Source: a virus
IMG/VR virus record: IMGVR_UViG_3300010401_000809
Coordinates: 1 to 42,385 of that record
Length of the DNA stretch: 42,385 bases
Strand: one strand, 5' to 3'
Part shown: piece after piece, positions 12,476 to 39,934 of the stretch
How positions within the stretch are numbered: position 1 is the first letter of the stretch
Layout: every line of letters starts with the position of its first letter
Made by a program: the position numbers and the translations under genes
Notes under the pieces: model-generated
The model's database searches: none
Seen by the model: the letters and a program-made list of their open reading frames with translations, nothing else
Told to the model about the DNA's origin: nothing

Positions 12476-12732
12476 CCCCGATGTGGTACGTCTATTCGTG
12501 GGGACCGCGGCTCATGGGTTTCTCGCGTAAGGGGCAGCGGTGCCGCGTGCTGGTTCGAGGGGCGATGAATTCCGCGCTCGTGGAGTTCGAGGATGGGTTT
12601 CAGGCGGTGATTTCACGGAGCGCCTTACGACGTGAAAGGGTTGTCGCTACCGCTACGGTCCAAACAGCACGGCCGCAGGATTCGTCGTCTTGCCTTCCCA
12701 CAGCGCCAGGATGCCTTCGACGGTTCGATTGA
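12472..12732 (+). CDS. Last gene of the early operon, overlaps the late operon
   Basis: 86 residues, ATGA overlap. The first 55 residues are protein-like and beta-rich (KGQRCRVLVRGAMNSALVEF, EDGFQAVISRSALRR); the last 30 (from about [13 protein letters not shown]) look random and lie over the 3' end of the convergent 2126-residue gene. The real ancestral stop may have been earlier. The 80-base overlap means that early and late mRNAs share complementary ends. Confidence 0.6.
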   Translation: MTPMWYVYSWGPRLMGFSRKGQRCRVLVRGAMNSALVEFEDGFQAVISRSALRRERVVATATVQTARPQDSSSCLPTAPGCLRRFD

Positions 12733-15700: not shown

Positions 15701-18700
15701 CGAGAACCCGAATTCTCTCGCGATCAGATCCGGATCCACGCCGCCGTTTCGGGTGTAGACGTAGGGTTTAGGGAGCTCTTTGATAAACGCCTCGCCGTAT
15801 CGATCGATCAGGGCCTGGCGGTCGAGCTTTACGGCCGAGTCCGGAGGCACCGCGGATCCGTCCGGCAATTTGCCCCGTTGAAGAAATTCCAGCGCCCGGT
15901 ACACCGGCTGCCGCTGCACTTCACTTGCGACTTGCTCGCGAACCTTCACGCGCTCCCGATCCCACCATTCCTCGTTTTCACGGAAGACGTCGTGGAGGAG
16001 CTGGGCCTGGACGGTTTCTCTTGCGCGCTCGCGGCCCTGGTCGAGCGTGGGCTTGTAGGCTTCAAACTCCGCGTCCGTCATCCCGAGCTTTTGCCGGACG
16101 GCCGCATTGCTCAACATGGAGGCCACGCCGGCGTCCTGCTCGGCTTGCGCGATCTCGCGGTCCGTGGCCATCAACCGGTCGAAAACACCAGTAACTTCCG
16201 GCGTCAGCTCCACGCGCAGGTCCTGCAGCGACCGGTACACGCGGCGCAGCCACCCGGAGAAAGCAATGAAGACGGAGCGGAGCTCAGGGCTCGGCGTTTT
16301 ACCTTCACGCAGATACGCCTCGTAGGCGCGTGCCCACTTCTCATGTTGTTCGCGGCCGATCTGATCGCGCGCGGAAACGCCAAGAAATTCGAGCGCCTTG
16401 TTGTAGTCGTCGACGACGCGTCTCTCGCTGTCGGTCAGCTCTCCCGGGCGCGTGCGCAGCTCCTCGACGACGTCGCCGAAAACTTCCAGATACATGTGCC
16501 CGGTCTCATGGAGGAAGGTCGAGAGGTTTGCCTTCTGCAAGAGCTCGATATTGAAAGTGCGTCCTGGCGTGATCTGGAAACGGCCGCGCGGATTGTCTTC
16601 GCCTTGCAGGTATTGGCTGCGTTCGGAGGCGAGCTGCTGCCGCAGCGGCTCGTGATTGAGGTCCGGCGTTGCTTCCAGCAGAAGGCGCCAGCGCTGTCCC
16701 CGTTGCGCTTCCGACTTCGCAGCAAGAACCGAGTCGAGTAACTTTGCAGCGGGATCCCCGCCGCTCTGGCGAACCTGCTTCCGGTATTCTGCAAAGCGCT
16801 CCGGTGACGGGGGCGCGGACTGCTCGAACAGGTCTCCCGATCGCGGATCGATCTCCGCGGCCGCCGCATCGTTCAGGAGCTTCTTAATCTCTTCGTTGGA
16901 CATTTTTGCGATGTCGACGTCGAGCGACTTCAGATAACCGTCGAGCTGCTCGTACATGGAGACCTGCTCCATGCGGGCCATGTCGGCCTGCTGTGGCGCG
17001 TAGACGGGCTTGCCGCGAACCTCACGTTCGATCACATCGAGAAACTCCGCGACCGACGAACGCTCGGGAAGATAGCCCGCCTCGGCCGCGAGCTCGCGCG
17101 CGGTGTCGAGGGGCATCCCCTTCGCCTGGACAAGATTCCGTTCACCGCGCCGGCGCTCGGCATCAACCTCGAGAGACTTGAGCTCTCCTCCCTGGTCCAT
17201 CACTCCTCCCTTGGCGCGGAGGAAGTCGACGAGGGACGGTCCATAGGTTTCCTTGCCCGGCTGCGGGACACCCTCTTTACGCAGCTTGTTCAGGACCAGA
17301 TCCATGGCGTCTGTTTTGGGAAGGACGCGCAAGAGATCCGAGGAGGGGCGGTTGATCCGCAGCTGATAGGGTTCGTAAATGGAATACGGATCCCGGCCTG
17401 TGCGTGCACCGAGCGATCGAAAGACTCGCGTGACGCTTTCCGCGTAGGCCTCGACGGCCGGCGCATCGAAGCCGCGTCCGCCAGTGAGCTGCCCGATAAC
17501 GTCCTGGCGCACGCGATCGGCGGAGGCCTCCAGGGACTGCTTCTGCTCCTCCGGCATCGCCGCGATTTGGGTTTCAGTGGAAGCGAGTTCACGCATGGCC
17601 ATGCGCGACTGTTCTTCTTCGCGGGCATTCTGTTGTTCGGGATCCCGGCGCAGCTCGCGCACAAAGAACGCACGGGTCTCTTCGGGCGCCAGGAGTTTTG
17701 TGGCCGCCTCATCGACGCGGATCGCGAGTTGACCGTCCGTCGCGACAGCCTGGTCGTAGGCCTCCGGAGTCACGCCCACCTTCTGCGCTTCCTCTCGCGG
17801 ATCCGCGCCCTGCTTTTGCCAGAACTCATTCCATTGGTCGACGTCCTGATGGAACGTTTCGATGGGACCGCCCTTCGTGATCGAGGCGATGAGCTCCTGA
17901 ACTTTCGGCGGAAGACGCTGAAAGGTTTTCGAATCGGCGACAGCCTTCCCCAGGTCCTCGAAGAATTGTTGCTGTTCGGGCTTCTCCGGTCCGGAGGCCT
18001 CTGGCCGCTGCAGACTCGCCCCAAGCGCGGGCAAGAGATGGTGCAGGCCTGCGCGGGCAACGCCGCCGCTGATGGCTCCGATCGCAAAGTCCGAGGCCAG
18101 GCCTTCGGCGATCGGGTGGTTGGGATCGATCGCCGTTTTTGTGATCAGATTATTCGCCACGCCTTGCGCGACCTGGACCACGCCCTGATAGCCGGTCGAG
18201 AGGGCGACGTCCGTCAGCCGGCGCAGAATGGCGTTTTGAATCTGCGGCGGGACCCGGTCTAGAAGTTTGTCCAGGCCGTACTTCCCGACGACACCCATCA
18301 CCACCGCTCCGGCGACCTCAGCGGCGTCCGAAGCTGCGGTCCCTTCCTTGCCCACGGCTTTAGCCTGGCCGTGAATGGTATCCGCTCCCATCGCCATCAA
18401 AGAGGGAAGAACGGTTTCCGGGGCCCAGATCGACTGGGCGATCTGAGCCCCGAGCTGGCCGAGTGCTCCAGCGGACTGCGTCAGGATGTTCTGTTGCTCG
18501 GGAGAGGGCGCGATCCAGAGAGTGCCGATATCCTTGAAAGCCTGTCCGGCTTCCTGGAGGGCGATCGAGATCGAGCCTTGATCACCGCGCTCTTCTCCCA
18601 ACGCGTGAGCGCCGATATCGATGATGTCGCCGAATCCCGCAGTGATACCGCCAATGGCTTCCGGAACCCCTGCGGCGAGCGATCGGCCGGCGTTCAGGAT

Positions 18701-19033
18701 CTGCTCGAGCGTGGAGAGATGCTCCACATCGTCGTGCGCCAGCTTGGAGTTGTTAGGATCCGTCAACCACCGCGCCAGCGCGGGCGACTGCTGGATCACT
18801 TGCTGGTAGGGAAAGTTCTGGACGGTGTTGCGCTTCGTGATCTGGTCGAAGTTCCGAGCCGCGATATCCGGAGGGATCCCACTGTCGGCGGCAAGCGATA
18901 GTGTTTTCGCGTGCTGGTCTGGAGTGGTGTTCGCGGCTGCGAACAGCGATTGCCGTAACGCGGACTCGACACCATCACCTTTGTCGGGAAGACTGATGCT
19001 CCGCGCGGCCGCGTCGTATTCGTTCTGGCTCAT
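12653..19033 (-). CDS. Giant virion/ejection protein with HETGH peptidase-like domain
   Basis: 2126 residues from ATG 19033 (ATGA overlap with the upstream core protein; longer reading to 19213 rejected). Position after two other core proteins fits the gp16-like inner-core protein that enters the host cell with the DNA. An N-terminal region (about 80-330) has hydrophobic Ala/Gly-rich segments. Residues 842-846 are HETGH within [20 protein letters not shown], a zinc-peptidase signature seen in large polyvalent phage proteins. Long charged coiled-coil stretches follow (about 1050-1350), and near the C-terminus a hydrophobic segment ([20 protein letters not shown]). No transglycosylase motif is seen. 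Roles in envelope penetration and in cleaving a host protein are inferred. Confidence 0.8.
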
Positions 19034-21120: not shown

Positions 21121-21803
21121 TAGCTGATCCTCCCGCTGCTCACGATCGGAGGAGTAGTCCGAGTACTCCGGCTGGACGAATAGCCCTGATAGGCGAGATT
21201 CGCCGCGCCGCCGAGGATCGTCGAGACCGCGCCGGCGCGGCCGGCGGCCTGCGCATTGTTCCCGCCCATGCGCGTGGACAGCGCCTGAACCCGTCCGATT
21301 CTCCGGGTCGATGCCGCCTCGAGGTCCGCATTTTTGAGCAGCGCGTCACGCTGCTGCCGGGAGTTTTCCGCTTCGACCTGGTAGCCCCAGGCCTCGCGCG
21401 CGGCATTCACCCGGATCGTCACCAGGTCCTGCGCAAAGGTGTAGCGGGAACTCTTCTCCATGTCTTGCGGCGAACCCACACTGACGTCGACACCTTGCGC
21501 CGCGTAGTTCGCGCGCTGAGCTCCGATCGCCTGACGGCCCGTCACCGCATACCGGTCCGCATCCTCGAACCCGCGCCGGACCGCGTCGCGGCTCTGCGCT
21601 TCAAGCATCTTCGCGTTCCAGGTCAACACTCCCGCGTTGGTGTCCGCCGTCGCCTCGAGGAGCTGCGCGTTCAGTTCGGACGTGTCCTGAATCTCGTTGG
21701 CGTTCACCTGCGCCTGGCGTTTTTGCGCATTGCCGGCTTTGATCTGGGAGCCTGCCGAGAACGCGGTTCCCGCGATCGCCGTGATTGCTGCTGTCGCTGC
21801 CAT
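21120..21803 (-). CDS. Small core/ejection protein, gp14-like
   Basis: 227 residues. It starts with a hydrophobic Ala-rich segment ([20 protein letters not shown]) and continues as long polar helix rich in Ala, Gln, Asn and Arg ([26 protein letters not shown]-like stretches), with [15 protein letters not shown] in the middle, a phrase typical of podovirus virion core proteins. Such proteins insert in the host membrane on infection. Tail is Ser/Thr-rich. Confidence 0.75.
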
Positions 21804-22726
21804 CAGCCGCCCACCTTTCCGGCCGGAATAATCCCCAGAATCGCGAGCGGAAGCGGCTCCTCGAGGCGCAGGAAGACCCGGCCCGGCCGCCGCCAGGAGG
21901 CGTCCATCGTGACCTTGACGATTTCGCTACGGGTGTCGCCGCTGGTCAATCCGAAGATGTCGGTAGCCAGCGCGGAGCCGGCCTCCGGACGGAACGACCG
22001 CAAGTGGTCTTCGTCCGGTCCGACTTGCATGGTTCCGCGGCTCCGGTCGACGAGGATCGACGCGCTCCGCACAAGCTTCTGCTTGTCACGGACTTCCGTG
22101 GTGGCGCTATCCAGGTCCAGCGTTTCGAAGTCCGCGGTGATCGGCAGGCCCACATGCACAATGTCGTAGAGCCCGCCGAGGGAGACTTCGCCGCCGCTGA
22201 CGGTGCCGCTCAACACAACACCGTTGGCGAGGATCGAGACGTCCTCGCCCTCGAGGTGATCCAGGTTGGCGACAACGTCCACTGCAAGAGACCAGTTGAC
22301 CGTCGCCGTGTCCCGCAGGGTGGCGTCGACTTCATCCACTGCAGGAGGGGTGGCTGCGGGCAGGAAGTTGGAAGGGTTGCCGCGCACCACTGTTGGGCTA
22401 TCGTAGGCCGTGATCGTGATTCGCGTGATCGCGCCGCCGGGCACCCACACCGTCACGCCATTGCCGACGTCGCCCGCATCGAACTTGGCCGTGTCGCACG
22501 TCACGGTGATTTCGTCTGCCGCTTCCCAGCCCCCTCCGGACGTGAGCGTGACTTGCGACCCGTCCACACTGATTCCGTTGTAGGAGAGGAATGAATCCAG
22601 GAACAATCCGTCCAGCCGGTAGTCCTCGACCTGCCGGGAGGCCATGCGCTCGATGTAACGCTTGGTCTCGCCATTGATGGTTCGCCGGGTGATGACGTAA
22701 AGGTAGTCTTCAATTTTGGCTGTCAT
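21803..22726 (-). CDS. Tail nozzle protein (gp12-like), C-terminal part
   Basis: 307 residues. It begins in mid-family: EDYLYVITRRTINGETKRYI ERM is the sequence that normally follows, within one chain, the WHRH block of the nozzle or stabilisation protein encoded by the neighbouring gene. The rest is beta-rich, with a domain containing ILANGVVLSGTVSGGEV and a terminal part ending SWRRPGRVFLRLEEPLPLAI. It starts by ATGA overlap with the 723-residue gene, so both halves would be made in equal amounts and could assemble into one subunit. Confidence 0.75.
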   Translation of the reverse strand: MTAKIEDYLYVITRRTINGETKRYIERMASRQVEDYRLDGLFLDSFLSYNGISVDGSQVTLTSGGGWEAADEITVTCDTAKFDAGDVGNGVTVWVPGGAITRITITAYDSPTVVRGNPSNFLPAATPPAVDEVDATLRDTATVNWSLAVDVVANLDHLEGEDVSILANGVVLSGTVSGGEVSLGGLYDIVHVGLPITADFETLDLDSATTEVRDKQKLVRSASILVDRSRGTMQVGPDEDHLRSFRPEAGSALATDIFGLTSGDTRSEIVKVTMDASWRRPGRVFLRLEEPLPLAILGIIPAGKVGG

Positions 22727-24894
22727 GCGTACAGGTACTCCACCCAGCAGTCGTAAACGTAGAGATGGATCGTCGCGCTGAAATCCTGAAACAGGGAGTG
22801 TCCCTGCATCGCCCGGACGAAGATGTCGGCGGCGCCCCCTGGAAACGTCGACGCGAAGTCCACTGCTGTGAAAGTGTGGGTATAGTCGGTCTTCGCCACA
22901 TCCACGCTGCCTCCCGAAAAGAGGTTCACGATAGACGACGCCGGGAACGCGTTCGTGTACGCATTGAAGATATCGATCAGCGACTCGGGAGCACCTCCGG
23001 TCGCGCCGCCGACGCTGACTTCCGCCACGACGTGGACCGTAGCGCTCACGAGTGTTTTCAGCGGATCTGGCTCAGGAAACGCCGAGAGAATCAGCTGCGC
23101 GTAGTTCGGTGTCAACGGCCGCGTCGAATCAATCTGACAGTCGGCCCGCGTGAGCGATTCGCCGAAATCCTCATCCGCATCGATCGCGAGATCTCCATCC
23201 TCGATCCGCGAGCGCAGAGCATTTACATAGACGGGGTCTTCCCACTCTTCGTATGTCAGCGGGCGGAATCGAGTTTCCGCAGGCGGAGTTTCGGCGGCCA
23301 CATCTGGAATGTCCGGCTTCCCCTCGGGCAGCACGCGCGCGTCTTCAAAGTACCCGACCGTGTTGTGGCGGTGCCAGGCGAAGGCCTGCATTTCGCGCAC
23401 GTAGGTCATGCCGAGCAAGTAACCGTCGTCGCGGACGCACCACACAATCGAATGCGGAATTGCCGCGTAGTCCATCCGCTCAATCACGCGCTTATCGAAA
23501 AGGTGCGGCGCGAAAAGCGTCAGGTCCCGGCCGCCCACAGCCTGTTCGGTCTGCTCGAAATTCAGGTCGCGCACGCCACGCGCGCGGGCCTGCACGAAGA
23601 CGATCGTGTTGCCGATAACGACCGGCATGATTAGGCTCGATCCGTAATAAGAATGCTGGAGCAGGTTGATGGCGCCCGGCGTCAGGATGCCGTCCTGGTC
23701 GCCCAGGGCAACGCCTTCGGATCCACCCGTCAAGATGATGAGCCGTCCCGCTTCGACCATATGGCGCACGTCGCTGACGGCCCTCGACTTCACCCGGAAC
23801 GTGACCGCGTCATCGTCCTGTAGCGGACGGTTGACGGAGAAGTTCGAGGGGAACCCCGTACGCGAGGCATTGACGAGTTGCGGATCATTGTCCGTTGCGG
23901 CAAACAGACGCCGCTGCTGGTAGGACGCCGAGGCTTGCGGGTAGTCTCCACTCGCAGCAAAGAGCACGCGTGCAGTGGGAGGCGTTTCCGAAAGGTCCGG
24001 AATGATACCGGGATCGTTGAAGGAATTGCTCGCCGCCGTCCCGATGTAGCCGTAAACGCCGTTTCCCGCCTGGTCCAGATACACGTTGTATTCGGCAGCG
24101 TCAGAGACGGCGCCCCAGGACAGTGTGTTGGGAGCTGCATCCGTCGGCGCGTCGCAGGCGCACGAATCGGAGCCGGACGGCAACGACTCTTCGAGCGTTT
24201 CAGCCTTCACGGCTGTCACGACGTAGTCATAAGTGAAGGCCGTGCCGGCGCCGGCCACCGCCGCCAGACTCGCCGGCGCGGCGATCGACGGCGCCGTCAC
24301 CACAGCCGTGAGCGTCCAGCGCGTGGGATACCGGCGCAGTTCATACGGGGGATAGTTGCGGCTGGTGATGGTGAGGATGTCCCCGTCCTGCGAGGTCTGC
24401 AGGTTCGCCAGGTCCTCCGCCTGGTACGGCGTCGGAATCTCAAAAGTGTCACCCGTCTGGGCGTACCAGAAATCCGCGGTGTTTGTTCCCGCGCCCGGCT
24501 CGTCGTTCGCGGCCGCGGACGTATGGTCCTGCAGGCAGTAGTAATTCACGCCGCCGTGCACGACCAGGCCGCCCTGCTCGTAGTCCGTCATGTCCAGCCA
24601 CGCGTCCGGACTGCCGACAGTGACGACAGAAGCATCCTGGATGAACCGGATGTATTCCTCGCCCACCTCGAGCAGGTAGGCATCGTCTTCGTTGAAAACG
24701 AATTTGAGCAGGTACGTGCGGACGCTCGAGTCTTTTACTTCAGTCACAAACTCGAAGCCCGCGCGGTTGGCCACGCCGCCGTGGCGCATGACAAAGAAGT
24801 TCAGGCAGGTCTTGAGAGCCTGCTGGTAGACCTCCTGCCGGGCGCCGCCGAAGAGTGACGAGCCGATTTCTCCGTACTCAAAGGAGCGTTGCAT
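22723..24894 (-). CDS. Tail nozzle protein (gp12-like), N-terminal part plus extra domain
   Basis: 723 residues. Residues 1-528 are a recognisable nozzle/stabilisation protein: YQQALKTCLNFFVMRHGGVA NRAGFEF start, PYQAEDLANLQTSQDGDILT, ASYQQRRLFAATDNDPQLVN, RHMVEAGRLIILTGGSEGVA, GNTIVFVQARARGVRDLNFE, VWCVRDDGYLLGMTYVREMQ and AFAWHRHNTVGYFEDARVL. After PEGKPD, where the family continues with the RRTING block, the chain instead carries about 195 unrelated residues (IPDVAAETPPAETRFRPLTY to EYLYA), beta-rich, perhaps a surface or adhesion domain. The block is resumed in the next gene. Confidence 0.85.
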   Translation of the reverse strand: MQRSFEYGEIGSSLFGGARQEVYQQALKTCLNFFVMRHGGVANRAGFEFVTEVKDSSVRTYLLKFVFNEDDAYLLEVGEEYIRFIQDASVVTVGSPDAWLDMTDYEQGGLVVHGGVNYYCLQDHTSAAANDEPGAGTNTADFWYAQTGDTFEIPTPYQAEDLANLQTSQDGDILTITSRNYPPYELRRYPTRWTLTAVVTAPSIAAPASLAAVAGAGTAFTYDYVVTAVKAETLEESLPSGSDSCACDAPTDAAPNTLSWGAVSDAAEYNVYLDQAGNGVYGYIGTAASNSFNDPGIIPDLSETPPTARVLFAASGDYPQASASYQQRRLFAATDNDPQLVNASRTGFPSNFSVNRPLQDDDAVTFRVKSRAVSDVRHMVEAGRLIILTGGSEGVALGDQDGILTPGAINLLQHSYYGSSLIMPVVIGNTIVFVQARARGVRDLNFEQTEQAVGGRDLTLFAPHLFDKRVIERMDYAAIPHSIVWCVRDDGYLLGMTYVREMQAFAWHRHNTVGYFEDARVLPEGKPDIPDVAAETPPAETRFRPLTYEEWEDPVYVNALRSRIEDGDLAIDADEDFGESLTRADCQIDSTRPLTPNYAQLILSAFPEPDPLKTLVSATVHVVAEVSVGGATGGAPESLIDIFNAYTNAFPASSIVNLFSGGSVDVAKTDYTHTFTAVDFASTFPGGAADIFVRAMQGHSLFQDFSATIHLYVYDCWVEYLYA

Positions 24895-24897
24895 GGC

Positions 24898-25539
24898 TCA
24901 CCGGTTCCGGATCCACTCCGCCTCCTGGGGCTGTTCCTCTTGTTCTTCGTTGCCGTCCTGCGCATCGGCGACCGCAAGCGACAGGCGAAATGCCGCGAAG
25001 CATTTCTCAGCCATGCCTTCGATCTCCGAAACCGGCATCGCGAGCTTGTAGGCGAGGTACAGCGCGAGCGCCTCAATGAAGTCCGCTTCAAATTCCTCGG
25101 GATCGGTAATCAGGAGCGTGTACTCGATTTCGATCTCTTCGTCGTAGCTGGTGAAGATCAACTTGCCGCGCACCTGGTCGGAGGGATCCGCCTCGGGATT
25201 GGTGATGCCGGCACCGATCTTGAACTGTGGAGGATTGGTTTCTTTCCGTCCCGCCGGCGTCACGATGCGGCGCACACTCACGCCATCTGTGGGATAGAGA
25301 AACTCGTAGGTCCAGTCGCCATTGACAGGATCCGCCTGGGATCCGTCGACGAGATCCGGCGATTGATACGAGGTTGCAAATTGCCAGGGCGCTGCGCGCA
25401 ACACGTAGCGCACCGCAGTGTCCCAGACCAGCCGGCCGAGCGTCGCTTCCTTGGTCTCGTCGGTGTCGACGTCGTCGGCAAGGACCGAGTGTCCCAGGTG
25501 GATCAGGGCCATGTTGAAGATTTCCGTTTTGGTCGCCAT
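24898..25539 (-). CDS. Tail adaptor protein, gp11-like (tail tubular protein A)
   Basis: 213 residues. The N-terminus TKTEIFNMALIHLGHSVLAD and LVWDTAVRYVLRAAPWQFAT are the hallmark helices of T7 gp11-like adaptors, which form the ring between portal and nozzle. The middle is beta-rich and the helix EFEADFIEALALYLAYKLAM is also typical. An acidic Glu/Gln-rich tail follows. It is next to the nozzle gene, as in T7. Confidence 0.85.
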   Translation of the reverse strand: MATKTEIFNMALIHLGHSVLADDVDTDETKEATLGRLVWDTAVRYVLRAAPWQFATSYQSPDLVDGSQADPVNGDWTYEFLYPTDGVSVRRIVTPAGRKETNPPQFKIGAGITNPEADPSDQVRGKLIFTSYDEEIEIEYTLLITDPEEFEADFIEALALYLAYKLAMPVSEIEGMAEKCFAAFRLSLAVADAQDGNEEQEEQPQEAEWIRNR

Positions 25540-26157
25540 CTACTGAATCCCGTACAGGGTGAAGATCGACCCCGTTTTGAATTTGTTGGTTGCCGAGAGA
25601 TCGATCTGGCTGATGGCGGCCGCACTTATCCAGCTGACGACATACGTGTACGCGAAAAGATTGGTAACTCTGGCTCCAGCCGTCGCAACGCTGGATCGGG
25701 CAGTTTTTTCAAATGTTGTGTCCTTATAGTCTGGAATGAAAATTTCAATCTGACCTCGCGAGTTCGGGCTGTCGGACGTCGCACCGGGGAGCAGGCCAAT
25801 TACACCGAAAGCTTGTGCTGCGCTGTGGTTGGCAGCAACTGTAGTGTCTACGCCGTACAACCATTGGGAGTCGTAGAGTGACCCACCAGTGCCGTTGAAT
25901 TGAATGGTTGTGACCGCCGTGACGGCGTTTTGGATGTCGCGGCCGGTCACGACCAGCCTCAGATGGTTGTAGGTGCCCGGAATTGAACTGAATGTGACTG
26001 TCGCCTGGTCGGAGCCGAGCACCTGTCGCGAAATCTGAACCCACGCTCCACTATTGCCGGCCGTGACGCCCGCGACAAGCTTGCGCATCACATCGAGCCA
26101 CACGCTGGTAATCAGGCGCTTCTCGTTCACAACGGGTTGAGTGCGGGGGAATTCCAT
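25540..26157 (-). CDS. Fibre-tip-like structural protein
   Basis: 205 residues. From residue 40 on it looks like the jelly-roll tip of phage tail fibres: VTFSSIPGTYNHLRLVVTGR, IQFNGTGGSLYDSQWLYG, GQIEIFIPDYKDTTFEKTAR, AAAISQIDLSATNKFKTGSI FTLYGIQ. The short N-terminus (residues 1-39) would be the attachment part. It is a candidate receptor-binding protein. Its stop touches the start of the adaptor gene, with no gap. Confidence 0.7.
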   Translation of the reverse strand: MEFPRTQPVVNEKRLITSVWLDVMRKLVAGVTAGNSGAWVQISRQVLGSDQATVTFSSIPGTYNHLRLVVTGRDIQNAVTAVTTIQFNGTGGSLYDSQWLYGVDTTVAANHSAAQAFGVIGLLPGATSDSPNSRGQIEIFIPDYKDTTFEKTARSSVATAGARVTNLFAYTYVVSWISAAAISQIDLSATNKFKTGSIFTLYGIQ

Positions 26158-26170
26158 TAGTAGCCACCGA

Positions 26171-28282
26171 TCATGGGAGGACCTGCGTGCTGCCGAAGAT
26201 GACGATGGATTGATCGAAGGTGACGGTCGCGGCGGGCGATAGCCCGTGCGTGCCGCCTTTCCAGTTAAACGTAGTGGAATCGCCAGGGGTCACCGAATCC
26301 AACGCCGCCGTCGACGTCGATCCGCGCTGCGTCCATACACCGCCCGCAATGTCGTACATCTTCAGTGAGCACAAATTGTTTGTGGCGTCGTGGATCAGGG
26401 CATAGCCGTACGTCGTGTTTGCGAGCGAATCAATCACGGATCCTGTCGTGGAGCTCGTTGGCGCCGCAGAACTGCCGTGAGCACGCGGACCGAAGCCAGA
26501 CGTACCAGAGCCTCCAGACTTATTCACCCATTGCAGAACGCAATCAATCGTCAGACCGCCAGACGAGGTGCTGACGACGAAATCGATACCGGTGTTTGAC
26601 AGGTCGCCTGCGAGTGTGGTGCTGATCAATCCCTGCTGAATGACAACCGGCGCGCTCTTATATGCGGTCCAATTTATAGACTGGTCGGCGGCCGCACTGA
26701 GATCGATGATCCACGATTTGGCTGAGCCAGAGCCGTTGTAGGAAGAGTTTCGAATGTTAATCGACTTCGGCAACTGGCCGAGATCTGCGCCATTGACCGT
26801 CATCGCCGTGAGCGGCGTTGGGGTGGTTGTCCACACACCGCCTTGAGCCACTGTGGAGGCCGCCAGGATCGTTGGGTCGAGAACGGCTCCGATAGTGCCA
26901 TTGTCCGCGGTGTTCAAAAACTCCGCGTCATTGGCAAGCACATTCGCGCTTCCAGAGCCGCCGGAAACATGACCGACCAGCGAAACCATCGCAAGGACAG
27001 CCGATGGGGCGGTCGCCGAGGGCGTGAAGGCTGTACTTAAACGATCCGCCGCAGACGGCGTGAAAGTGCCCGACGCCTGCCAATTGAGGGTATTGCCGGC
27101 CAGGACCGTCGTGAACGGGGTTGAAGCGTCTGCCCCATTGACCTGAAGTTTTGCCGTATAGCTCTTGTTAAGGCCCCCGGGGACCCCGGCGAATCGAGCG
27201 TAAAGTCCGGTCACTGTAAATCCAGTCAGCACCGGCGTCTCGACCTGAGAGACGTTCGCAACCGCCACCGCCGCGCCGACTCCAGAAACAGATACGTAAT
27301 TTGCAACAGCTGTTGAGAGGCTGGCGGATGTGACCGACGGGATGATGAAGTCGCCCGCGGTGTTCATCGTAATCGCAACGCCGTCCGATGTCGTGCTCGC
27401 CGTTGGGGTGGAGCCCGTAAAAGTCCAATGCACGGCAACTCGATCCTGCGGGTACACCGGCAGACATGGCGACAGGACCAGATGAACTTCGCCGCTCGTG
27501 ACCGTTCCGTCGCTGTACACGTTCGCGTAGGCCGTGTCCGTCCGGTTTACCTGAAGGGTCGCGGTTCTGCTCTTCGTCGCTCCTGGTGCGGTGTCGAGTT
27601 GTGTGTAGAAGTCTGTAATGCAACCCGTGGTGGGGATCAGGGTTTCACGAGCCGTCGAGACCGTCCCTCGTATGTTCCCGGCCAATGGCAGGAAGTCGTC
27701 CACCGTGGTGGAAAGGGAGGTCCCGCCAACGCTGCCGAGAACCGTAGTGTAGGCCGCGGTCGGAAAGAAGTTGATCTGCCCCGACAGGCGCGTTGCCGCT
27801 GGCGTGTTCGCGGGCGTTGTTCGAATCGTGACAAAGTCGCCTGCGGTGATCGCCTTGTTGGGCGTGATACTGCAGGTCTTTATGGCCGAAGTGATGACAC
27901 AGGTGCCGCCGGCAGCGGTGGACATGGAACCCGGAGTCGTGCCAGTTCTGAGATCGATGGTCCATGTCGCAGTGCCCCCGGGGACGACGTCGGTGGTGAA
28001 CGTGGCGTCAGTTACGACACCCGCAGCGGCAATAATCACCACACCGTTCTGAACCGTCGAGGTAGAGTTGCCCGAGCTGGCAAACGGAGCTAGAAAATGG
28101 ACCGCGCCCGTATTCGGGACGGCGAGGTTCGAGAAGAACCAGGGGTTGTTGGTGGGGGACGCCGCCGCGCCGCCGCCAGACGGACCGGTGCCCAGCAGTA
28201 AAAGGCCGCCGTTCTGCGCAGCGATCGTGCACTGAAGGAACGCGAACACGGTCGCGCTGAAAAGGATTAGGAATTTACGCAT
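26171..28282 (-). CDS. Large exported beta-rich protein with signal peptide
   Basis: 703 residues from ATG 28282 with GAGG upstream (the reading to 28546 is not favoured). The first 22 residues are a Sec signal peptide: MRKFLILFSATVFAFLQCTI then AAQ, a likely cleavage site before Gln. The mature part is Thr/Ser/Ala/Gly-rich, beta-type, with repeated strand-rich modules (for example TATWTIDLRTG, TKSRTATLQVNRTDTAYANV, NKSYTAKLQVNGADASTPFT) and a C-terminal part resembling lectin-like sandwiches. Several Cys fit disulphides. An exported protein in a virion operon is unusual. Confidence 0.75.
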   Translation of the reverse strand: MRKFLILFSATVFAFLQCTIAAQNGGLLLLGTGPSGGGAAASPTNNPWFFSNLAVPNTGAVHFLAPFASSGNSTSTVQNGVVIIAAAGVVTDATFTTDVVPGGTATWTIDLRTGTTPGSMSTAAGGTCVITSAIKTCSITPNKAITAGDFVTIRTTPANTPAATRLSGQINFFPTAAYTTVLGSVGGTSLSTTVDDFLPLAGNIRGTVSTARETLIPTTGCITDFYTQLDTAPGATKSRTATLQVNRTDTAYANVYSDGTVTSGEVHLVLSPCLPVYPQDRVAVHWTFTGSTPTASTTSDGVAITMNTAGDFIIPSVTSASLSTAVANYVSVSGVGAAVAVANVSQVETPVLTGFTVTGLYARFAGVPGGLNKSYTAKLQVNGADASTPFTTVLAGNTLNWQASGTFTPSAADRLSTAFTPSATAPSAVLAMVSLVGHVSGGSGSANVLANDAEFLNTADNGTIGAVLDPTILAASTVAQGGVWTTTPTPLTAMTVNGADLGQLPKSINIRNSSYNGSGSAKSWIIDLSAAADQSINWTAYKSAPVVIQQGLISTTLAGDLSNTGIDFVVSTSSGGLTIDCVLQWVNKSGGSGTSGFGPRAHGSSAAPTSSTTGSVIDSLANTTYGYALIHDATNNLCSLKMYDIAGGVWTQRGSTSTAALDSVTPGDSTTFNWKGGTHGLSPAATVTFDQSIVIFGSTQVLP

Positions 28283-28289
28283 CGGCGCC

Positions 28290-29207
28290 TCAGGGAACCG
28301 CGATCCGCGTGTACCAAACCTTCCCGGAAACGCGCGAAGAGGTGCTTTGTGCGAGACACCAGTCGTTTCCCGGAAGCAGCGAATAGGGCAGCCCGATCGA
28401 GCTATAGCCTCCATTGGCGGCAAAACTCTCCCCGTTGGCTGCAGTCGTCGAGCCGGAATGCGCAAGGGTTCCTGTGCCGCACGTGGTGCCCGAGCCTTCC
28501 CATTCGCTGGTAATTTCGGCCGCGCCGGCGACGACGCGAACACCACAGATGACGGTCAGCATCCCGGGCAGGCCCGAGACGACCTTCGTGCTGGCCGTTT
28601 GAGAAATCGCCGCATCCGCAAGGACCCTGTCGGCGCACGGATTACGGGAGGGTGGCGGACTCACCTTCAGTCCGTAGCCATCAAATGCCGCGGACTTCCC
28701 GAACAACCCCGGACCGGTCAGGGTCACCGAGGTTGGATTGAGCGGCTTTGAACTGAGGGCGGACCGCAGGTTGCCGAAGGCGGCCAACAAATCCGAATCC
28801 GCCTCCGCCGCTTCCGTCAATCCAATCCAGATCGGGAACACGCGGGCTGTGCCGGTGATCGAATCAATCGTGAACCGGACATGCGTGCAGATTGCCGAGC
28901 CGCGAATCGTATCGCCCGCAAGGGCGGCGCTGCTGCCAATCCGGAACGAGGTGGTTCCTCCATCACGGCTGCATTCAAGAGCAACCGGCAACGCGGTCGG
29001 CGTGCCACTCACGCTGTAGGTCAGGATGTGATCGGTCGCCCCGTACGCCGTAATGTCGTACCAGGTGGAGCTGCCCGCCGCCGCCATCGACGGCATTTGA
29101 ATCAGCGCGTTCTGATTGGTCGCAACCGTGCGTGTCTGCGCTCCAGCAAAGGGCGCGACGATAGCGGCCCACACGAGCGCGATCAGGAGAAGATGCTTCC
29201 GTGCCAT
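28290..29207 (-). CDS. Exported Cys-rich protein with signal peptide
   Basis: 305 residues, ATG 29207 behind AAGGAG. Signal peptide MARKHLLLIALVWAAIVAPF then AGAQ (cleavage probably A-G-A before Gln). The mature part is beta-rich, with WYDITAYGATDHILTYSVSG and an LECSRDGG segment, and six cysteines (ALEC, AIC, NPC, VIC, TTC, WCL), an even number consistent with three disulphides in an oxidising compartment. It lies 7 bases before the 703-residue gene. No family recognised. Confidence 0.75.
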   Translation of the reverse strand: MARKHLLLIALVWAAIVAPFAGAQTRTVATNQNALIQMPSMAAAGSSTWYDITAYGATDHILTYSVSGTPTALPVALECSRDGGTTSFRIGSSAALAGDTIRGSAICTHVRFTIDSITGTARVFPIWIGLTEAAEADSDLLAAFGNLRSALSSKPLNPTSVTLTGPGLFGKSAAFDGYGLKVSPPPSRNPCADRVLADAAISQTASTKVVSGLPGMLTVICGVRVVAGAAEITSEWEGSGTTCGTGTLAHSGSTTAANGESFAANGGYSSIGLPYSLLPGNDWCLAQSTSSRVSGKVWYTRIAVP

Positions 29208-29228
29208 TTTGGAAAACTCCTTTTTTCC

Positions 29229-29257
29229 ATGAGCGGGACGGAAACCGCCCCGCTCAT
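29229..29257 (-). other. Strong hairpin between exported-protein genes
   Basis: ATGAGCGGG (29229-29237) pairs perfectly with CCCGCTCAT (29249-29257); an inner CGG-AAA-CCG extends it past one mismatch. No T run follows on either strand. In the late mRNA it sits between two exported-protein genes and just before the AAGGAG of the second, so it may protect mRNA or tune expression. Confidence 0.6.
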
Positions 29258-29270
29258 CAGCTCTCGATGC

Positions 29271-29774
29271 TTAGAACCCCTGGTAGTAGGTCGCGTGCCA
29301 CTCCTGCGCGAGATTCGCGGCCGCAGCCGGCCCGACAAAAGTAGTGGCCGTGCCTGGAGAAGTGCTCTTCGCGCAGCCGCCGGTTGCCGGCGCACCAAAG
29401 GCGAAATCTTTGTCGTAGTTGATCGTCGCCGTGGCGGTCAGGGAATACTTGACCGCGAACGAGTTGAAGTTCGTCGACGTGGTGACCGCGTTGGTTTGAA
29501 CCGTCGCTGTACCGTCCTGGTGTGCGCCGTAGTGGAGGTAGCACACGTAGTTGTACATGCCGGGCGGTGGCGCGGGAATTGTGAGCGTTACCTGGTTGTT
29601 GACCGCGGCCGTTGAGGAAATCGGGATGACGGCCGTCTGCGCGGGCGCCGCCTGGACGAGACTGCCGCCCGCCGGCAGTGGGGATTGTGCCGAGATTCGC
29701 CCAGGGCCGACGAGCATCGCGCCGACCAACACCAGGGCGGCCAGAGACAGAATGGGATATTTGAAACCTTTCAT
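29271..29774 (-). CDS. Small exported protein with signal peptide
   Basis: 167 residues, ATG 29774 behind GGAAGGAG. Signal peptide MKGFKYPILSLAALVLVGAM, ending GRISAQS (cleavage after S-A, before Gln). The mature part has a Pro-rich start and a beta-sandwich-like body (QVTLTIPAPPPGMYNYVCYL, FAVKYSLTATATINYDKDFA) with two Cys that could pair. It is the first of three consecutive genes with signal peptides, directly after the capsid genes. No family recognised. Confidence 0.75.
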   Translation of the reverse strand: MKGFKYPILSLAALVLVGAMLVGPGRISAQSPLPAGGSLVQAAPAQTAVIPISSTAAVNNQVTLTIPAPPPGMYNYVCYLHYGAHQDGTATVQTNAVTTSTNFNSFAVKYSLTATATINYDKDFAFGAPATGGCAKSTSPGTATTFVGPAAAANLAQEWHATYYQGF

Positions 29775-29828
29775 GAGAAATGTTCTCCTTCCATGGAATG
29801 CGTTAACGTTTTGAGTTTTCGAAAGCGG

Positions 29829-30137
29829 TCAGATCGCCGCGACGGCGTCTTCGCCGTCCTTGCCGGCACGGATATCGGCCGACTCGGCATCGAGCGCTTT
29901 CTGCGCACCGTTTTCTTTCGCCGGGGTTACGCGAGCGTTGTCGGGCACCCGCTCCATCCAGCGCTGCGAGAAAAGCTTCGGATCGTGAAGATGGAACACG
30001 GCGCCCGCTCGCAACCTCTGTCCACGGTAGACGCCGATCTCTCCCTCTCTGACGCGAACGCGAAGGCCTTGAGGCCTCTCCGTGTCTCGCGCGGTTTCTT
30101 TGGCCGCGGACTTGCCCGCAGCATTTGCTTTTGCCAT
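29829..30137 (-). CDS. Small structural-region protein
   Basis: 102 residues, ATG 30137 with AAGGAGG upstream. A basic Ala/Lys-rich N-terminus is followed by VREGEIGVYRGQRLRAGAVF HLHD and LFSQRWMERV, a short beta module familiar from small phage head-region proteins (sequence pattern: rRxGdVF, FSxRWMExV). The tail is polar. Role unknown; by position head completion or a minor capsid component. Confidence 0.65.
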   Translation of the reverse strand: MAKANAAGKSAAKETARDTERPQGLRVRVREGEIGVYRGQRLRAGAVFHLHDPKLFSQRWMERVPDNARVTPAKENGAQKALDAESADIRAGKDGEDAVAAI

Positions 30138-30159
30138 AAGTGACCCCTCCTTGGGTCAG

Positions 30160-30185
30160 GAGGCCGGAGCCGCAGCTCCGGCCTC
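30160..30185 (-). other. 11-bp hairpin after the capsid genes
   Basis: GAGGCCGGAGC (30160-30170) pairs perfectly with GCTCCGGCCTC (30175-30185). In the leftward mRNA the loop is TGCG closed by C-G, a cUNCGg-type tetraloop of high stability. There is no T run. Placed directly after the cement and capsid genes, it may stabilise the capsid mRNA or reduce read-through. Confidence 0.65.
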
Positions 30186-30192
30186 GATGTGA

Positions 30193-30630
30193 CTAGCTGA
30201 TCGTGTAACCCTTGGCGTACTTCTCCGCCCGCTCCATGAACATGGACTTGGGCATCAAGAACGCGTCGACGGTGAAATCGACCGTACCGGTGATGTCGTA
30301 GTAGGCGCCCCAATACCGCAGGGCGCTCGGGCCCCCGGCCGGAAGCGCGATGAAATACGCTTTTCCCACCGCGATGTCGGCGGTCGCCAGGTCGACTTCG
30401 CCCACGATGGTCGGCGTACCGAGATTCGAGGCGGCCGACATGATCGCCTGGAACTTCGCGCTGCCGGTGTTCGTGCCGATCGCCTTGATAAAGACGCCGA
30501 TGCCCACAGGCTCGCCCACGCCGAGCTTGCGCTTGGGCGTGACGTTGCCGGCGTCGAAAGTGTTGCCAGAAGCCGCATCGGCAGTGACTTGCTGAGCGGC
30601 GGACAGTTGAAGCAATGCATCCAAAAACAT
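30193..30630 (-). CDS. Capsid cement protein, Bbp16-like
   Basis: 145 residues. MFLDALLQLSAAQQVTADAA and LGVGEPVGIGVFIKAIG, followed by a beta-rich body (IVGEVDLATADIAVGKAYFI ALPAG, LRYWGAYYDITGTVDFTVDA) match the Bbp16 family of Bordetella phage BPP-1, which decorates and stabilises the capsid surface. It lies 27 bases after the major capsid gene, the usual place, and has an AAGGAGGG ribosome binding site for high expression. Confidence 0.8.
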   Translation of the reverse strand: MFLDALLQLSAAQQVTADAASGNTFDAGNVTPKRKLGVGEPVGIGVFIKAIGTNTGSAKFQAIMSAASNLGTPTIVGEVDLATADIAVGKAYFIALPAGGPSALRYWGAYYDITGTVDFTVDAFLMPKSMFMERAEKYAKGYTIS

Positions 30631-30657
30631 TTCAGCCCTCCTTGGCTATGTGGCGCG

Positions 30658-31647
30658 TTAGCTGATCGCCGATTCGGTCTCGAGTAGCTGATCGCACAAG
30701 CGGAGAGGAATCCGCCGGAACGTCATCACCTCTTCACCGTCCAGTGTCGTTTCCCCGAGACAACCCGACAGGATCGCGTCGTCGCGGCCCTGGATGTCCA
30801 GGAACTCCAGGAGCGTGGAGTTCATGTAGATGCGGGTGTTCTTCTTGTTCCGGATGCGGTGGTACGCCTTGATCAGATTCTTGCGCAGATCCGCGGCGCT
30901 GGACTCGGTCGTGAGGTTGCTGATATCGATGTTGCAAATTCGAACGCATTTCCTCCAGTCCCCGACGAAGAGACCGATGTTCCAGGCCCATTTGTCGAGC
31001 AGCGCATCCATAAGCGCGCCGGTGACGCCATTGGCGTTCTGGATCACGACGCTACCTTTGTCCTCGTGGACGAGTCCTGCCGGCGTGCCTTTCGGGTAAA
31101 GAGCGCACATCTGATCGGACCAGTCGATCATCCAGATCGAACTGTTGTCCGAACCTGTGCCCCCGGCATTGATGATATGGGACGCGTTCGCAGCCGACAA
31201 ATCGTCGTAGTAGGACGAGAAGCCGACAAACTCTTCGGGCGCCGACGGGTTGCCGTAGAACAGAGTCTGCGCAACCTCCTGGCCCACCGCCTCGACGTGG
31301 GGAATCGCTTCCGACAAACGGAACGCGTTCACGTTGCCGCCGAGCTCCGCGAGCTTCTTGTCGACCTGAGACCAGGATTCCAGGTTGCCGCACTGGAAGT
31401 CGACCTGGGTCTTGCTGCCCTTGGACGGCAACACGCCGGCGTTGAGCAGGCGCCATGTGGCCGAGGCGAGTCCTGTTCGAATGGTGCCTCGGTGTCCGGT
31501 AGGAAGGTTGCCCTCCATCACCGGCATGTCCTTGATGATGTCGTTGCTCTGTTCGAGCAGTTCGATGACGCGCGCGATCGTCCCGTTCGGATCCAATCCT
31601 TTGGCGTAGTCCGAGAGCGTCATTGACGCTGTGCTAAGTGTTGACAT
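30658..31647 (-). CDS. Major capsid protein, Bbp17-like
   Basis: 329 residues, starting MSTLSTASMTLSDYAKGLDP. Segments typical of this HK97-fold family: ELLEQSNDIIKDMPVMEGNL, HRGTIRTGLASATWRLLNAG, VDKKLAELGGNVNAFRLSEA, EVAQTLFYGN, EEFVGFSSYYDD and, near the end, NKKNTRIYMNSTLLEFLDIQ and RIPLRLCDQLL. No N-terminal delta domain is visible, and a separate scaffold gene lies upstream. This is the shell subunit. Confidence 0.9.
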   Translation of the reverse strand: MSTLSTASMTLSDYAKGLDPNGTIARVIELLEQSNDIIKDMPVMEGNLPTGHRGTIRTGLASATWRLLNAGVLPSKGSKTQVDFQCGNLESWSQVDKKLAELGGNVNAFRLSEAIPHVEAVGQEVAQTLFYGNPSAPEEFVGFSSYYDDLSAANASHIINAGGTGSDNSSIWMIDWSDQMCALYPKGTPAGLVHEDKGSVVIQNANGVTGALMDALLDKWAWNIGLFVGDWRKCVRICNIDISNLTTESSAADLRKNLIKAYHRIRNKKNTRIYMNSTLLEFLDIQGRDDAILSGCLGETTLDGEEVMTFRRIPLRLCDQLLETESAIS

Positions 31648-32314: not shown

Positions 32315-33274
32315 TTAGCGATACGACCACGTGGCGAACTGCCGGACGTCGAGGTTCTTGACGGCCGCCGAGGTGGACTCGATATAAAACACCGGCGCCC
32401 CCGCGGTTGCCGGGGTCCAAGCGGATGCAATCTTGGTGATCTCCGCTTTGTCTTTGAAGCAGCGCATCGTGCCGTTCGCGTCGATTTCCACGCGGAGCCG
32501 GGTGTAGGTCGCCGCGGCCGGCATCACAACGCCGGTGTCCACGCCTGTGGCGGTGGTCAATATCGAAGCGGCCTCATCGGCCTTGTTGTGGGGCGCGAAC
32601 AGTTCCGTCGCGGCTGTGAGTCCGACGTGCATCAGCAGACCCGCCATGTCGTCCTGGACCATCGTGATGGTGGTCGCCGCGCAGGTTGCCGCGACATCCA
32701 GAGCGTCGGCTGCCGTTCCGAGGAACCCGCACCAAATGCCACGCAGGGTGATCGCCGTAACGTTCGTAAACTCCACGTCGATAACGAGGAGTTGGCCGGT
32801 GCTGGGCTTCATCACCCCAGCTTCCATACCCAGGGCGATGAGACGGGACGCGGTGGCGGTGGTGGTCAGACGGCCGACCTTACCCCCGACCGTGGCCGTC
32901 TGGACCACAAGGCCGGAGTCGCTCACTTCCTTGCCGTGCCCGAAGATGCGCAGTCCGGAGCCAGGCACCGTGTAGGCTGCGGCCGTATCGGCCAGGGCAA
33001 TGCCGACACCGTCGCCGAAGTCGGCGTGAACACCAAACAACGGGCGCTGCCTGAATCCCACGGGCGTGTAGTACGGGCTGTCCTTCGTGCCTTCGTTGAT
33101 AAACAGCACGCCGTTGGTTTTGTCGAACAGGAAGCCGCCCGGCTCGATATAGCCGGCGAGCGTCCCTGTCGTTCCACTGGAAGGTGCGCCATCGAAAGAC
33201 ATGTCCCTCAAGGGGTACATGCTTTCCTGGGCGCCCCGGGTTTTGAAAACAAGGTTACGTGGTCTCAGTCCCAT
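32315..33274 (-). CDS. Virion protein of unknown type (head fibre or decoration)
   Basis: 319 residues. N-terminal GLRPRNLVFKTRGAQESMYP and GGFLFDKTNGVLFINEGTKD look like a short attachment module; the rest is an Ala/Thr-rich beta sandwich (GLVVQTATVGGKVGRLTTTA, LVIDVEFTNVTAITLRGIWC, GTMRCFKDKAEITKI). ATG 33274 follows GGAGGAT. Placed between the Bbp19-like protein and the scaffold, it is probably a capsid-surface protein. Exact role unknown. Confidence 0.65.
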   Translation of the reverse strand: MGLRPRNLVFKTRGAQESMYPLRDMSFDGAPSSGTTGTLAGYIEPGGFLFDKTNGVLFINEGTKDSPYYTPVGFRQRPLFGVHADFGDGVGIALADTAAAYTVPGSGLRIFGHGKEVSDSGLVVQTATVGGKVGRLTTTATASRLIALGMEAGVMKPSTGQLLVIDVEFTNVTAITLRGIWCGFLGTAADALDVAATCAATTITMVQDDMAGLLMHVGLTAATELFAPHNKADEAASILTTATGVDTGVVMPAAATYTRLRVEIDANGTMRCFKDKAEITKIASAWTPATAGAPVFYIESTSAAVKNLDVRQFATWSYR

Positions 33275-35345: not shown

Positions 35346-35534
35346 TTATTGCTGGGGCCCGCCCGTGACGTCGTGATCCTTCGACAGTGCGCCGAGCACT
35401 GCGATCGCGGCCGCGGGAATAAGGTTTCCCGCTGTGATCGGATCCTGCGTCTTATCGCCTGCCAGGCGAGGGCCCACCATGATGCACATCGCACCCAGGA
35501 TCCCCGCGAGTGTTGTCTTCCATGACTTCTTCAT
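35346..35534 (-). CDS. Small membrane protein, holin candidate
   Basis: 62 residues: MKKSWKTTLAGILGAMCIMV forms a first hydrophobic segment, and LIPAAAIAVLGALSKDHDVT a second, with polar loop and tail. The pattern WKTTLAGI ... GALSKDxDVTGG is common in small phage proteins beside lysis genes. It overlaps the peptidoglycan enzyme gene by 4 bases, so a holin or holin-like role is likely but unproven. Confidence 0.65.
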   Translation of the reverse strand: MKKSWKTTLAGILGAMCIMVGPRLAGDKTQDPITAGNLIPAAAIAVLGALSKDHDVTGGPQQ

Positions 35535-35902
35535 TTACCTTCTCCTTCGATTACCTGCAGCTCCCGATCGCCGCTGGCTGCAATCTTCTCCCGCGTCAGC
35601 CGCGTCAACACGATGCAACCGTGCGACGCATCGCCCGACCCGTCATCTCCATGGATGCGAAACAACGTCCGGCCAAACATTTCATTCGCCGCGTCCGGCG
35701 TCAGCCGGAGCGTCACCGGTCCGCACTCGTGCGAGTGGTACGGATCGCCGATTCGATAGACCCCTCGAGGTAGAGGCCCCACGTCGGCCACTGCCTGGAG
35801 CTCCGGGGCGTTCTTTCCTCTGCCGTTCCCCGCGTAGCCCGTGTCGATCAGCACGCCGTTGTGGCGCAACGCTCCGGTCTTTTGTTCGTAAGTCCACGTC
35901 AC
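35531..35902 (-). CDS. Tlde1/DUF2778-type peptidoglycan enzyme, lysis candidate
   Basis: 123 residues from GTG 35902. The tlde1 domain fills the protein: GPLPRGVYRIGDPYHSHECG, PVTLRLTPDAANEMFGRTLF, then RIHGDDGSGDASHGCIVLTR with the catalytic His and Cys of the L,D-transpeptidase-like fold. Known tlde1 proteins are secreted toxins that cut or exchange L,D-linked peptides in peptidoglycan. No signal peptide is present. Placed between two small membrane proteins in a late operon, and with no other lysin in the window, it probably serves as the endolysin. Confidence 0.8.
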   Translation of the reverse strand: MTWTYEQKTGALRHNGVLIDTGYAGNGRGKNAPELQAVADVGPLPRGVYRIGDPYHSHECGPVTLRLTPDAANEMFGRTLFRIHGDDGSGDASHGCIVLTRLTREKIAASGDRELQVIEGEGK

Positions 35903-36069
35903 ACGTGCCCCTCGATCCGGTCCATCCGCTTATGTGCTTCCACAAACCGCTCGTTGTCGCGCACTTCGTGGTCTTTCATCCACTGCAACACCGCGCCGGT
36001 CCTGATCAACACCGTGGCCAGCGTGACCACGCCGACACAGATACTGACGATTGTGAGTAAGTGGTCCAC
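35899..36069 (-). CDS. Small membrane-anchored helical protein
   Basis: 56 residues from GTG 36069. One hydrophobic N-terminal segment (LLTIVSICVGVVTLATVLI) is followed by a charged helix (MKDHEVRDNERFVEAHKRMD RIEGHV). The layout (membrane anchor plus coiled region) suits a pinholin regulator or an i-spanin-like protein. The stop shares GTGA with the lysin start. Too short for certain assignment. Confidence 0.65.
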   Translation of the reverse strand: MDHLLTIVSICVGVVTLATVLIRTGAVLQWMKDHEVRDNERFVEAHKRMDRIEGHV

Positions 36070-39389: not shown

Positions 39390-39934
39390 TCTTCATTGCT
39401 CGCCTCAAGAATCTCCTCAAGCGTTTTCACCATTCGCAGCTCATGCTTCTCGATCAAGTGGCCTCTCAGCTTCAGTGACAGCTCCGTCATTTCGCGGCGC
39501 TCGGCGAAGTCGACAAGGTGAACGCGGTCGACAATCACGCCCTGGTGCGATGCGGTTTTCGTCTGCATCGCGTGAAGGCCCTGGTAAACCCGGCGCGCTA
39601 AGAGTTTGTCGGTGACGCCGGCCAGCTCCAGGATCTGAGTGAAGAGCGCCTGAACTGCAGGCCGCTCCTCGATCTTCGCCTTCGCGTTCTCAGCGGTGCT
39701 TGGCGCGTATCCTGCCTCGAGCGCCGCCTCTTTTTTTGTCGCGCCGGCCACTCGGCTTCTGACGTACTTTCGCTGCTGCGGCGTGACATCGCGCGGCGAT
39801 CGCGCGGACTGTCGACCTGGCGATGCCGCTTTCTCTGGCGATCGCTTTGATCGTTGTTTTGCCGCTCCGGACTTGCCGGGCAATTTCTTCTGCATCGACT
39901 CTCTTACGAGGGCGACCGAGCCGCTTCCCTTCAC
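39386..39934 (-). CDS. terS: Terminase small subunit
   Basis: 182 residues if started at ATG 39934. The DNA-binding part is TPQQRKYVRSRVAGATKKEA ALEAGYAPSTAENAKAKIEE (HTH of the terminase_2 type), followed by an oligomerisation helix region. The first ~60 residues are basic low-complexity sequence read over the 3' end of the serine recombinase gene in another frame (245-base overlap). The true start may be inside (ATG 39895, or GTG near 39757). It would choose the pac or cos site. Confidence 0.8.
   Translation of the reverse strand: MKGSGSVALVRESMQKKLPGKSGAAKQRSKRSPEKAASPGRQSARSPRDVTPQQRKYVRSRVAGATKKEAALEAGYAPSTAENAKAKIEERPAVQALFTQILELAGVTDKLLARRVYQGLHAMQTKTASHQGVIVDRVHLVDFAERREMTELSLKLRGHLIEKHELRMVKTLEEILEASNEE

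Follow-up and report, generated by a model that had tools for sequence, protein, structure and literature searches.

Three consecutive genes of the virus record IMGVR_UViG_3300010401_000809 (42,385 bases, 61% G+C; this whole stretch is referred to as the window) encode proteins of 167, 305 and 703 residues that are predicted to leave the host cytoplasm through the Sec pathway. Their export is well supported, at the level of sequence, by the signal peptides, by an invariant glutamine (Gln) directly past the predicted cleavage site, and by the recurrence of the same trio in another phage contig, L002. The genes lie on the minus strand between the head and tail genes of the virion operon and, as judged from the gene order of related phages, form an inserted cassette together with an adjoining gene for a 205-residue protein (Table 1). 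We tentatively favor the interpretation that the trio represents exported adhesin or decoration proteins, which would fold in the periplasm and meet the virions at lysis.

A sequence-only reading of the window had already placed the three genes between the capsid and tail genes and had assigned each of them a signal peptide with Gln as the first mature residue; the analysis upheld all of these points. The signal peptides were scored with a heuristic rather than with SignalP, based on the charge of the n-region, a hydrophobic 10-mer and an AxA-type site, with a cut-off of 3.4. The scores of the 167-, 305- and 703-residue proteins were 4.11, 4.45 and 3.70, which are the three highest values, and the only ones above 3.4, among the 35 window genes of at least 100 residues. 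By this heuristic, all three have the features of Sec and signal peptidase I substrates: a positive n-region, a hydrophobic core and an AxA-type site within 15–38 residues. Per 5000 shuffles of the whole protein, 1, 1 and 7 reached the protein's own score, respectively; when only the first 60 residues were shuffled, the numbers were 23, 2 and 14. Shuffled window proteins exceeded the cut-off at a rate of 0.3%, and the probability that three such genes out of 35 would be adjacent was 0.005. The predicted cleavage sites are ISA/QSP, AGA/QTR and IAA/QNG, so that Gln occupies position +1 in 3/3 proteins, compared with a Gln frequency of 3.5–4.3% in these sequences. None of the trio signal peptides contains a lipobox. 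The start of the 703-residue protein is closely preceded by GAGG, and a mechanical open reading frame (ORF) finder extends this ORF to 791 residues; of its putative repeats, the second and third match each other at E 7e-4, and the first is not significant.

The conservation pattern around the cleavage site points to selection on cleavage. In an alignment of 12 members of the 167-residue family, the mean column conservation was 0.23 for the signal peptide, 0.41 for the linker and 0.64 for the domain; despite the poor conservation of the signal peptide, the Gln at +1 was identical in 12/12 members. The simplest reading of these sequences is selection on the cleavage product, beyond a hydrophobic start. 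One member (L005, 10426–10941) has QQ/Q in place of the AxA site. Throughout the phage set, Gln followed the predicted site in 21/26 signal-peptide proteins. The presence of Gln directly past the cleavage site, as found in the trio, corresponds to the Q-rule (Bochtler 2018, PMC5837995).

Comparison with seven reference phages of the same capsid family (BcepC6B, phiV10, Caulobacter BL94, Limnohabitans DC33, Microcystis Mel-JY33, Pseudomonas Shamal and ctEw122) demonstrated how the cassette interrupts a conserved order. In the reference phages, the capsid gene is followed by the Bbp16-like gene and then by one or two small genes, with tubular A and the nozzle next. Nothing corresponding to the trio, nor any signal-peptide protein, is encoded in the post-capsid stretch of these seven phages; the sole signal-peptide match in the fetched regions was the Shamal endolysin, further upstream. 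Since the site is empty in all seven capsid relatives, the trio and the 205-residue gene are, on gene order, an inserted cassette; absence from the same site in relatives is one of the features of a moron, or accessory gene. The codon fit per codon was 0.08–0.24 for the four inserted genes and 0.28–0.37 for the core virion genes, on which the model had been trained; the lower values fit accessory genes.

While the site is empty in the seven capsid relatives, all three families are encoded by L002. This 9-kb contig has a coat protein (phrog_283) unlike that of the window, and carries the families in the order 305, 167, 703, all three having a signal peptide followed by Gln at +1; a fourth signal-peptide protein is encoded directly behind its coat gene. 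Profile searches with the 167-residue family further recovered L004 to L010, which range from 40 to 66% G+C and have capsid types phrog_283, 771/264 and 617/10. In these phages the family usually stands in a run of two to seven signal-peptide proteins behind the capsid gene. The stretch from the capsid gene to the head-closure or tail genes encodes four to seven such proteins in a row in L004, L005 and L006/L007 (counted once because their common region is nearly unchanged), and L008, L009 and L010 have two or three signal-peptide genes at or near the 167 homolog. In the whole records G001, G002 and G003, scored with a cut-off of 3.3, signal-peptide genes in the head-to-tail slot numbered 4/6, 5/8 and 4/4. 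In L004, the signal-peptide protein encoded right behind the capsid gene has a weak match to a PHROG of virion structural proteins (E 4e-5). The 703-residue family was found in the window and L002 only, an empty search of the other records being of little weight. Annotated phages yielded no homolog of the 167-, 305- or 703-residue proteins, and plasmids yielded none when the L002 relative of the 305-residue protein was the query. The occurrence of the same kind of exported genes at the same kind of place in unrelated phages suggests a shared use of the host export system.

A further relative is L013, a phage of the window's own capsid family. Its head-to-tail slot encodes a relative of the C-terminal domain of the 305-residue protein (305-C) and two more signal-peptide proteins. 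One gene (11969–14146), directly ahead of tubular A, encodes a 725-residue protein that begins with a signal peptide, has Gln at +1 and matches the PHROG tail-fiber family 33320 over residues 39–715 (E 3.5e-23). An N-terminal motif search for other signal-peptide tail-fiber proteins of this kind returned only L013's own contig. Tandem diverged copies of the 167-residue family, two or three in number, were also observed in L005 (9384–10941), L006 (7253–8241) and L008 (10013–11047), a pattern that would suit a rapidly diversifying surface protein.

The claim that the mature parts are beta-rich agreed with a confident model of the 167-residue protein and, with moderate confidence, with the C-terminal part of the 305-residue protein. 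In the former model, a signal helix leads through a disordered linker into a beta-sandwich with a predicted local distance difference test (pLDDT) score above 90 for 90 residues; the fold resembles viral jelly rolls, carbohydrate-binding modules and a phage protein without a signal peptide. This last protein, the best viral fold match, is a 126-residue Curvibacter phage protein with a template modeling (TM) score of 0.72 on the target. The N-terminal half of the 305-residue model was poor (pLDDT about 30–40), and the C-terminal domain, of moderate confidence, was used alone; it resembles stand-alone phage proteins of about 106–118 residues, which are too short for a signal peptide. Because both folds resemble phage proteins without signal peptides, the models make the trio domains look like phage domains that have acquired export signals, and not like host envelope proteins taken whole. 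A search of PDB sequences gave no match for the 167- or 703-residue proteins, and Pfam matches to Cupredoxin, Epiglycanin and bPH_11 were rejected as below the cut-off. The cysteines are a different matter: the counts of 2, 6 and 7 in the 167-, 305- and 703-residue proteins agree with the "several" reported earlier, and several neighboring virion genes have 0–1. With 6 cysteines in the capsid protein as well, number alone is not distinctive and was dropped as evidence. C78 and C134 are, however, invariant across the 12 members of the 167-residue family.

According to the interpretation in which the trio joins finished particles, the cassette would be read with the virion operon, and the signal peptides would route its products through Sec, where signal peptidase I would expose a Gln that the host would probably cap as pyroglutamate. 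The beta-sandwich domains would then fold in the oxidizing periplasm, where disulfides would form. At lysis, the virions leaving the cytoplasm would meet these proteins, which would then attach to the particles and serve in receptor binding or surface decoration. Sequence comparison shows the insertion, the signal peptides and the conservation; from these we infer export, capping, disulfides and joining at lysis, the last being the weakest step. The sequence-only reading had reasoned that exported proteins should not be virion proteins, so that the trio may coat or alter the host envelope, block superinfection or help release. Its export claim is well supported by the sequence tests, the invariant Gln and the trio in L002, but the step from export to a role outside the virion does not follow, given the L013 tail fiber with a signal peptide, the phage folds without signal peptides and the lack of a tail fiber gene at the usual place in the window. 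In BcepC6B and phiV10, tail fiber genes come after those for the ejection proteins, a position where the window carries no such gene; this leaves either the cassette or the gene for a 319-residue protein (32315–33274) as candidates for receptor binding. It is the L013 fiber in the same slot, together with the missing fiber gene of the window, that pulls our interpretation towards the virion. P22 tailspikes and T4 Hoc and Soc attach to finished particles in vitro and provide a precedent for late joining.

Several observations weigh against late joining. We know of no tailed-phage virion protein that reaches the particle via Sec export, and a search of the open-access literature found none. Proteins acting on the envelope need no late-joining step, and relatives can do without the cassette. 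Another gene, such as that of the 319-residue or the 205-residue protein, could encode the missing receptor-binding protein. No sequence match links the trio to a known fiber, spike or decoration family in Pfam or PHROGs; the fold matches of the 167-residue protein in the PDB were weak, none below E 1e-3, with TM scores of about 0.3; and the Curvibacter fold match, which was assigned to a gene of its genome record from length and composition, is not part of the annotated block of virion genes in that phage and thus says nothing firm about function.

Envelope modification is nearly as likely as late joining. The trio would then be late-expressed morons whose products act in the periplasm, at the outer membrane or outside the cell without becoming virion parts, covering receptors against superinfection or the loss of progeny to debris, altering the cell surface or aiding release. 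Such a role is consistent with cleavable signal peptides that lack a lipobox, with the conserved cysteines and with a Gln rule that fits an export habit of hosts; the absence of the cassette from the site in seven capsid relatives is as expected of accessory genes, and the tandem paralogs of L005, L006 and L008 also favor it. Precedents are Lom and Bor of lambda, Cor of phi80 and N15, and Llp of T5. The Q-rule genes of Porphyromonas gingivalis phages are likewise suggested to modify the outer membrane (PMC10367356). However, envelope modification leaves unexplained the signal-peptide tail fiber of L013, the use of the head-to-tail slot in unrelated phages and the window without a tail fiber gene; furthermore, the 167-residue protein is a beta-sandwich and not an outer-membrane barrel, and no lipobox is present.

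Two other explanations are improbable. The trio might be ordinary virion proteins that keep an N-terminal hydrophobic segment for membrane insertion or particle packing, in which case the likeness to a signal peptide would mislead. The position in the virion operon and the L013 tail-fiber match would suit this, and cleavage here is a prediction from sequence; but the hydrophobic segment is poorly conserved while the Gln past the AxA-type site is invariant, and the Gln bias matches that of exported bacterial proteins. It is just as unlikely that the trio are lysogenic conversion proteins, exported for the benefit of the lysogen and altering host surface, adhesion or polymer binding in soil. An integrase and a nearby tRNA-Met suggest a temperate phage, and the weak fold likeness to carbohydrate-binding modules would agree with polymer binding. 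However, a consensus scan found no sigma-70-like promoter of the cassette's own within 25400–30700 (host promoters may differ), and the trio shares the strand and tight spacing of the late genes. Terminator-like sites around the cassette were at chance level.

The Gln bias also bears on the host. Gln at +1 is known as the Bacteroidetes Q-rule (PMC5837995), which has been stated to be exclusive to that phylum (PMC10653852); besides the Gln, a substrate of the rule would come from a Bacteroidota host with a glutaminyl cyclase and would carry pyroglutamate. Plasmids of the Acidobacteriota Granulicella tundricola and Acidisarcina polymorpha (L014–L019, L036–L038) were run through the same pipeline, with Sinorhizobium and Cupriavidus as controls. 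Gln stood at or near +1 in 20/23 acidobacterial non-lipoprotein signal peptides versus 5/23 in Proteobacteria (Fisher p = 1.8e-5), the acidobacterial sample being small and from one family, Acidobacteriaceae. This suggests that the "Bacteroidetes-only" rule extends to Acidobacteriota, and the shared bias makes an acidobacterial host plausible for the window phage, whose G+C content would suit that phylum. Profiles of the 167-residue protein and 305-C found no homolog in 84,980 bacterial and archaeal genomes, so the host is not directly identifiable by this route.

The window virus is a soil-type bacterial virus, probably a temperate podovirus of the epsilon15/BPP-1 type. It contains a GP7-type capsid protein, a Bbp16-like protein, a head-tail connector and a nozzle, and the order on the minus strand is terminase-side genes, portal (PF12236, E 9.8e-144), capsid, Bbp16-like, tubular A, nozzle, gp14-like and ejection-type genes and the 2126-residue protein, after which no tail fiber gene is found. 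The two nozzle ORFs align to parts 7–506 and 506–711 of the phrog_376 profile, and the larger one contains a carbohydrate-binding module (CBM 5/12) at residues 98–135 (E 9.2e-8). The 319-residue protein, encoded among the head genes and likewise a candidate for surface binding, has no family match. A Tlde1/YkuD-type L,D-transpeptidase-like protein (35531–35902) lies beside small membrane-type proteins (35346–35534, 35899–36069), perhaps a lysis cassette, upstream of the portal gene. The integrase (1–1236) and a complete tRNA-Met (1744–1819) are near the left end, which is why the phage is probably temperate, and a serine resolvase (39690–40364) is near the right end; these may represent an attachment site and two recombinases. 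A phage recombination pair is encoded at 5647–7298, with the gene for a Rad52-like annealing protein first and that for a PD-(D/E)XK nuclease behind it.

Table 1. Virion operon features around the inserted cassette in the window.
Feature	Positions	Strand	Family match
Major capsid protein GP7 (epsilon15/BPP-1 type)	30658–31647	minus	PF20911, E 7.5e-105
Bbp16-like capsid protein	30193–30630	minus	PF21190, E 3.9e-11
102-residue protein at the BcepC6B gp10 position, last head-side gene ahead of the insertion	29829–30137	minus	
167-residue protein: predicted signal peptide 1–29, Gln30 at +1, variable linker, one jelly-roll-like beta-sandwich, invariant C78 and C134	29271–29774	minus	
305-residue protein: predicted signal peptide 1–23, Gln24 at +1, C-terminal beta domain of about 125 residues with conserved cysteines	28290–29207	minus	
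703-residue protein: predicted signal peptide 1–22, Gln23 at +1, three putative repeats of about 100 residues, C-terminal region of about 240 residues	26171–28282	minus	
205-residue protein without signal peptide, final gene of the inserted cassette	25540–26157	minus	none
Tail tubular protein A-like, first conserved tail-side gene past the insertion	24898–25539	minus	phrog_394, E 1.2e-35
Tail nozzle (tubular B-like), two adjacent ORFs (22723–24894 and 21803–22726)	21803–24894	minus	phrog_376
2126-residue protein, final virion operon gene	12653–19033	minus	LPD22 domain; phrog_9880

Tailed-phage virions are understood to assemble in the cytoplasm. If exported proteins are clustered in the virion operons of unrelated phages, this would mean either a common, undescribed late remodeling of the envelope or a periplasmic branch of virion maturation. 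As a broader and rather doubtful proposal, some tailed phages of Gln-rule hosts may complete their particles outside the cytoplasm, fitting at lysis adhesins, fibers or decoration proteins that were sent through Sec, capped as pyroglutamate and disulfide-bonded in the periplasm. In addition, the Gln bias provides a simple sequence clue to the hosts of uncultivated soil phages.

The sequence-only reading knew of no named phage system of this form, which is nearly right, as exported phage proteins in late operons are already known, singly. Lom of lambda and Cor of phi80 and N15 are signal-peptide proteins from tail-gene regions that act at the outer membrane. However, they are single genes for an outer-membrane barrel or a lipoprotein, whereas the trio is a run of beta-sandwich proteins predicted to be soluble; neither Pfam nor PHROGs gave a match that ties the two together. 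Jelly-roll or Ig-like folds also occur in head decoration proteins such as T4 Hoc and the Bbp16 type; these beta-sandwich proteins coat the capsid and are often encoded near its gene, but they are made and kept in the cytoplasm and have no signal peptide. The Q-rule genes of P. gingivalis phages also qualify the earlier statement: five signal-peptide genes of unknown function were reported in Nixviridae (PMC10367356), and they share with the trio Gln at +1 of a phage-encoded Sec signal peptide, a trait interpreted as an adaptation to host export. Their host belongs to the Bacteroidota, and the passages considered do not mention a row of beta-sandwich genes set between those for head and tail. 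In the open-access literature searched, no recurring run of signal-peptide beta-sandwich genes in the head-to-tail slot of unrelated phages was found. The epsilon15/BPP-1-type podoviruses share with the window the capsid family, the Bbp16-like protein, the portal and the order of tubular A and nozzle, but BcepC6B, phiV10, Caulobacter BL94 and the others have neither the trio nor any signal-peptide protein between the gp10-like gene or genes and tubular A. Finally, although the 703-residue protein has no sequence match to PHROG 33320, and the tail fibers of Bcep43 and Bcep781 match the L013 protein only from residue 166, the 725-residue member in L013 shares with the 703-residue protein the signal peptide, the Gln at +1 and the genomic slot.

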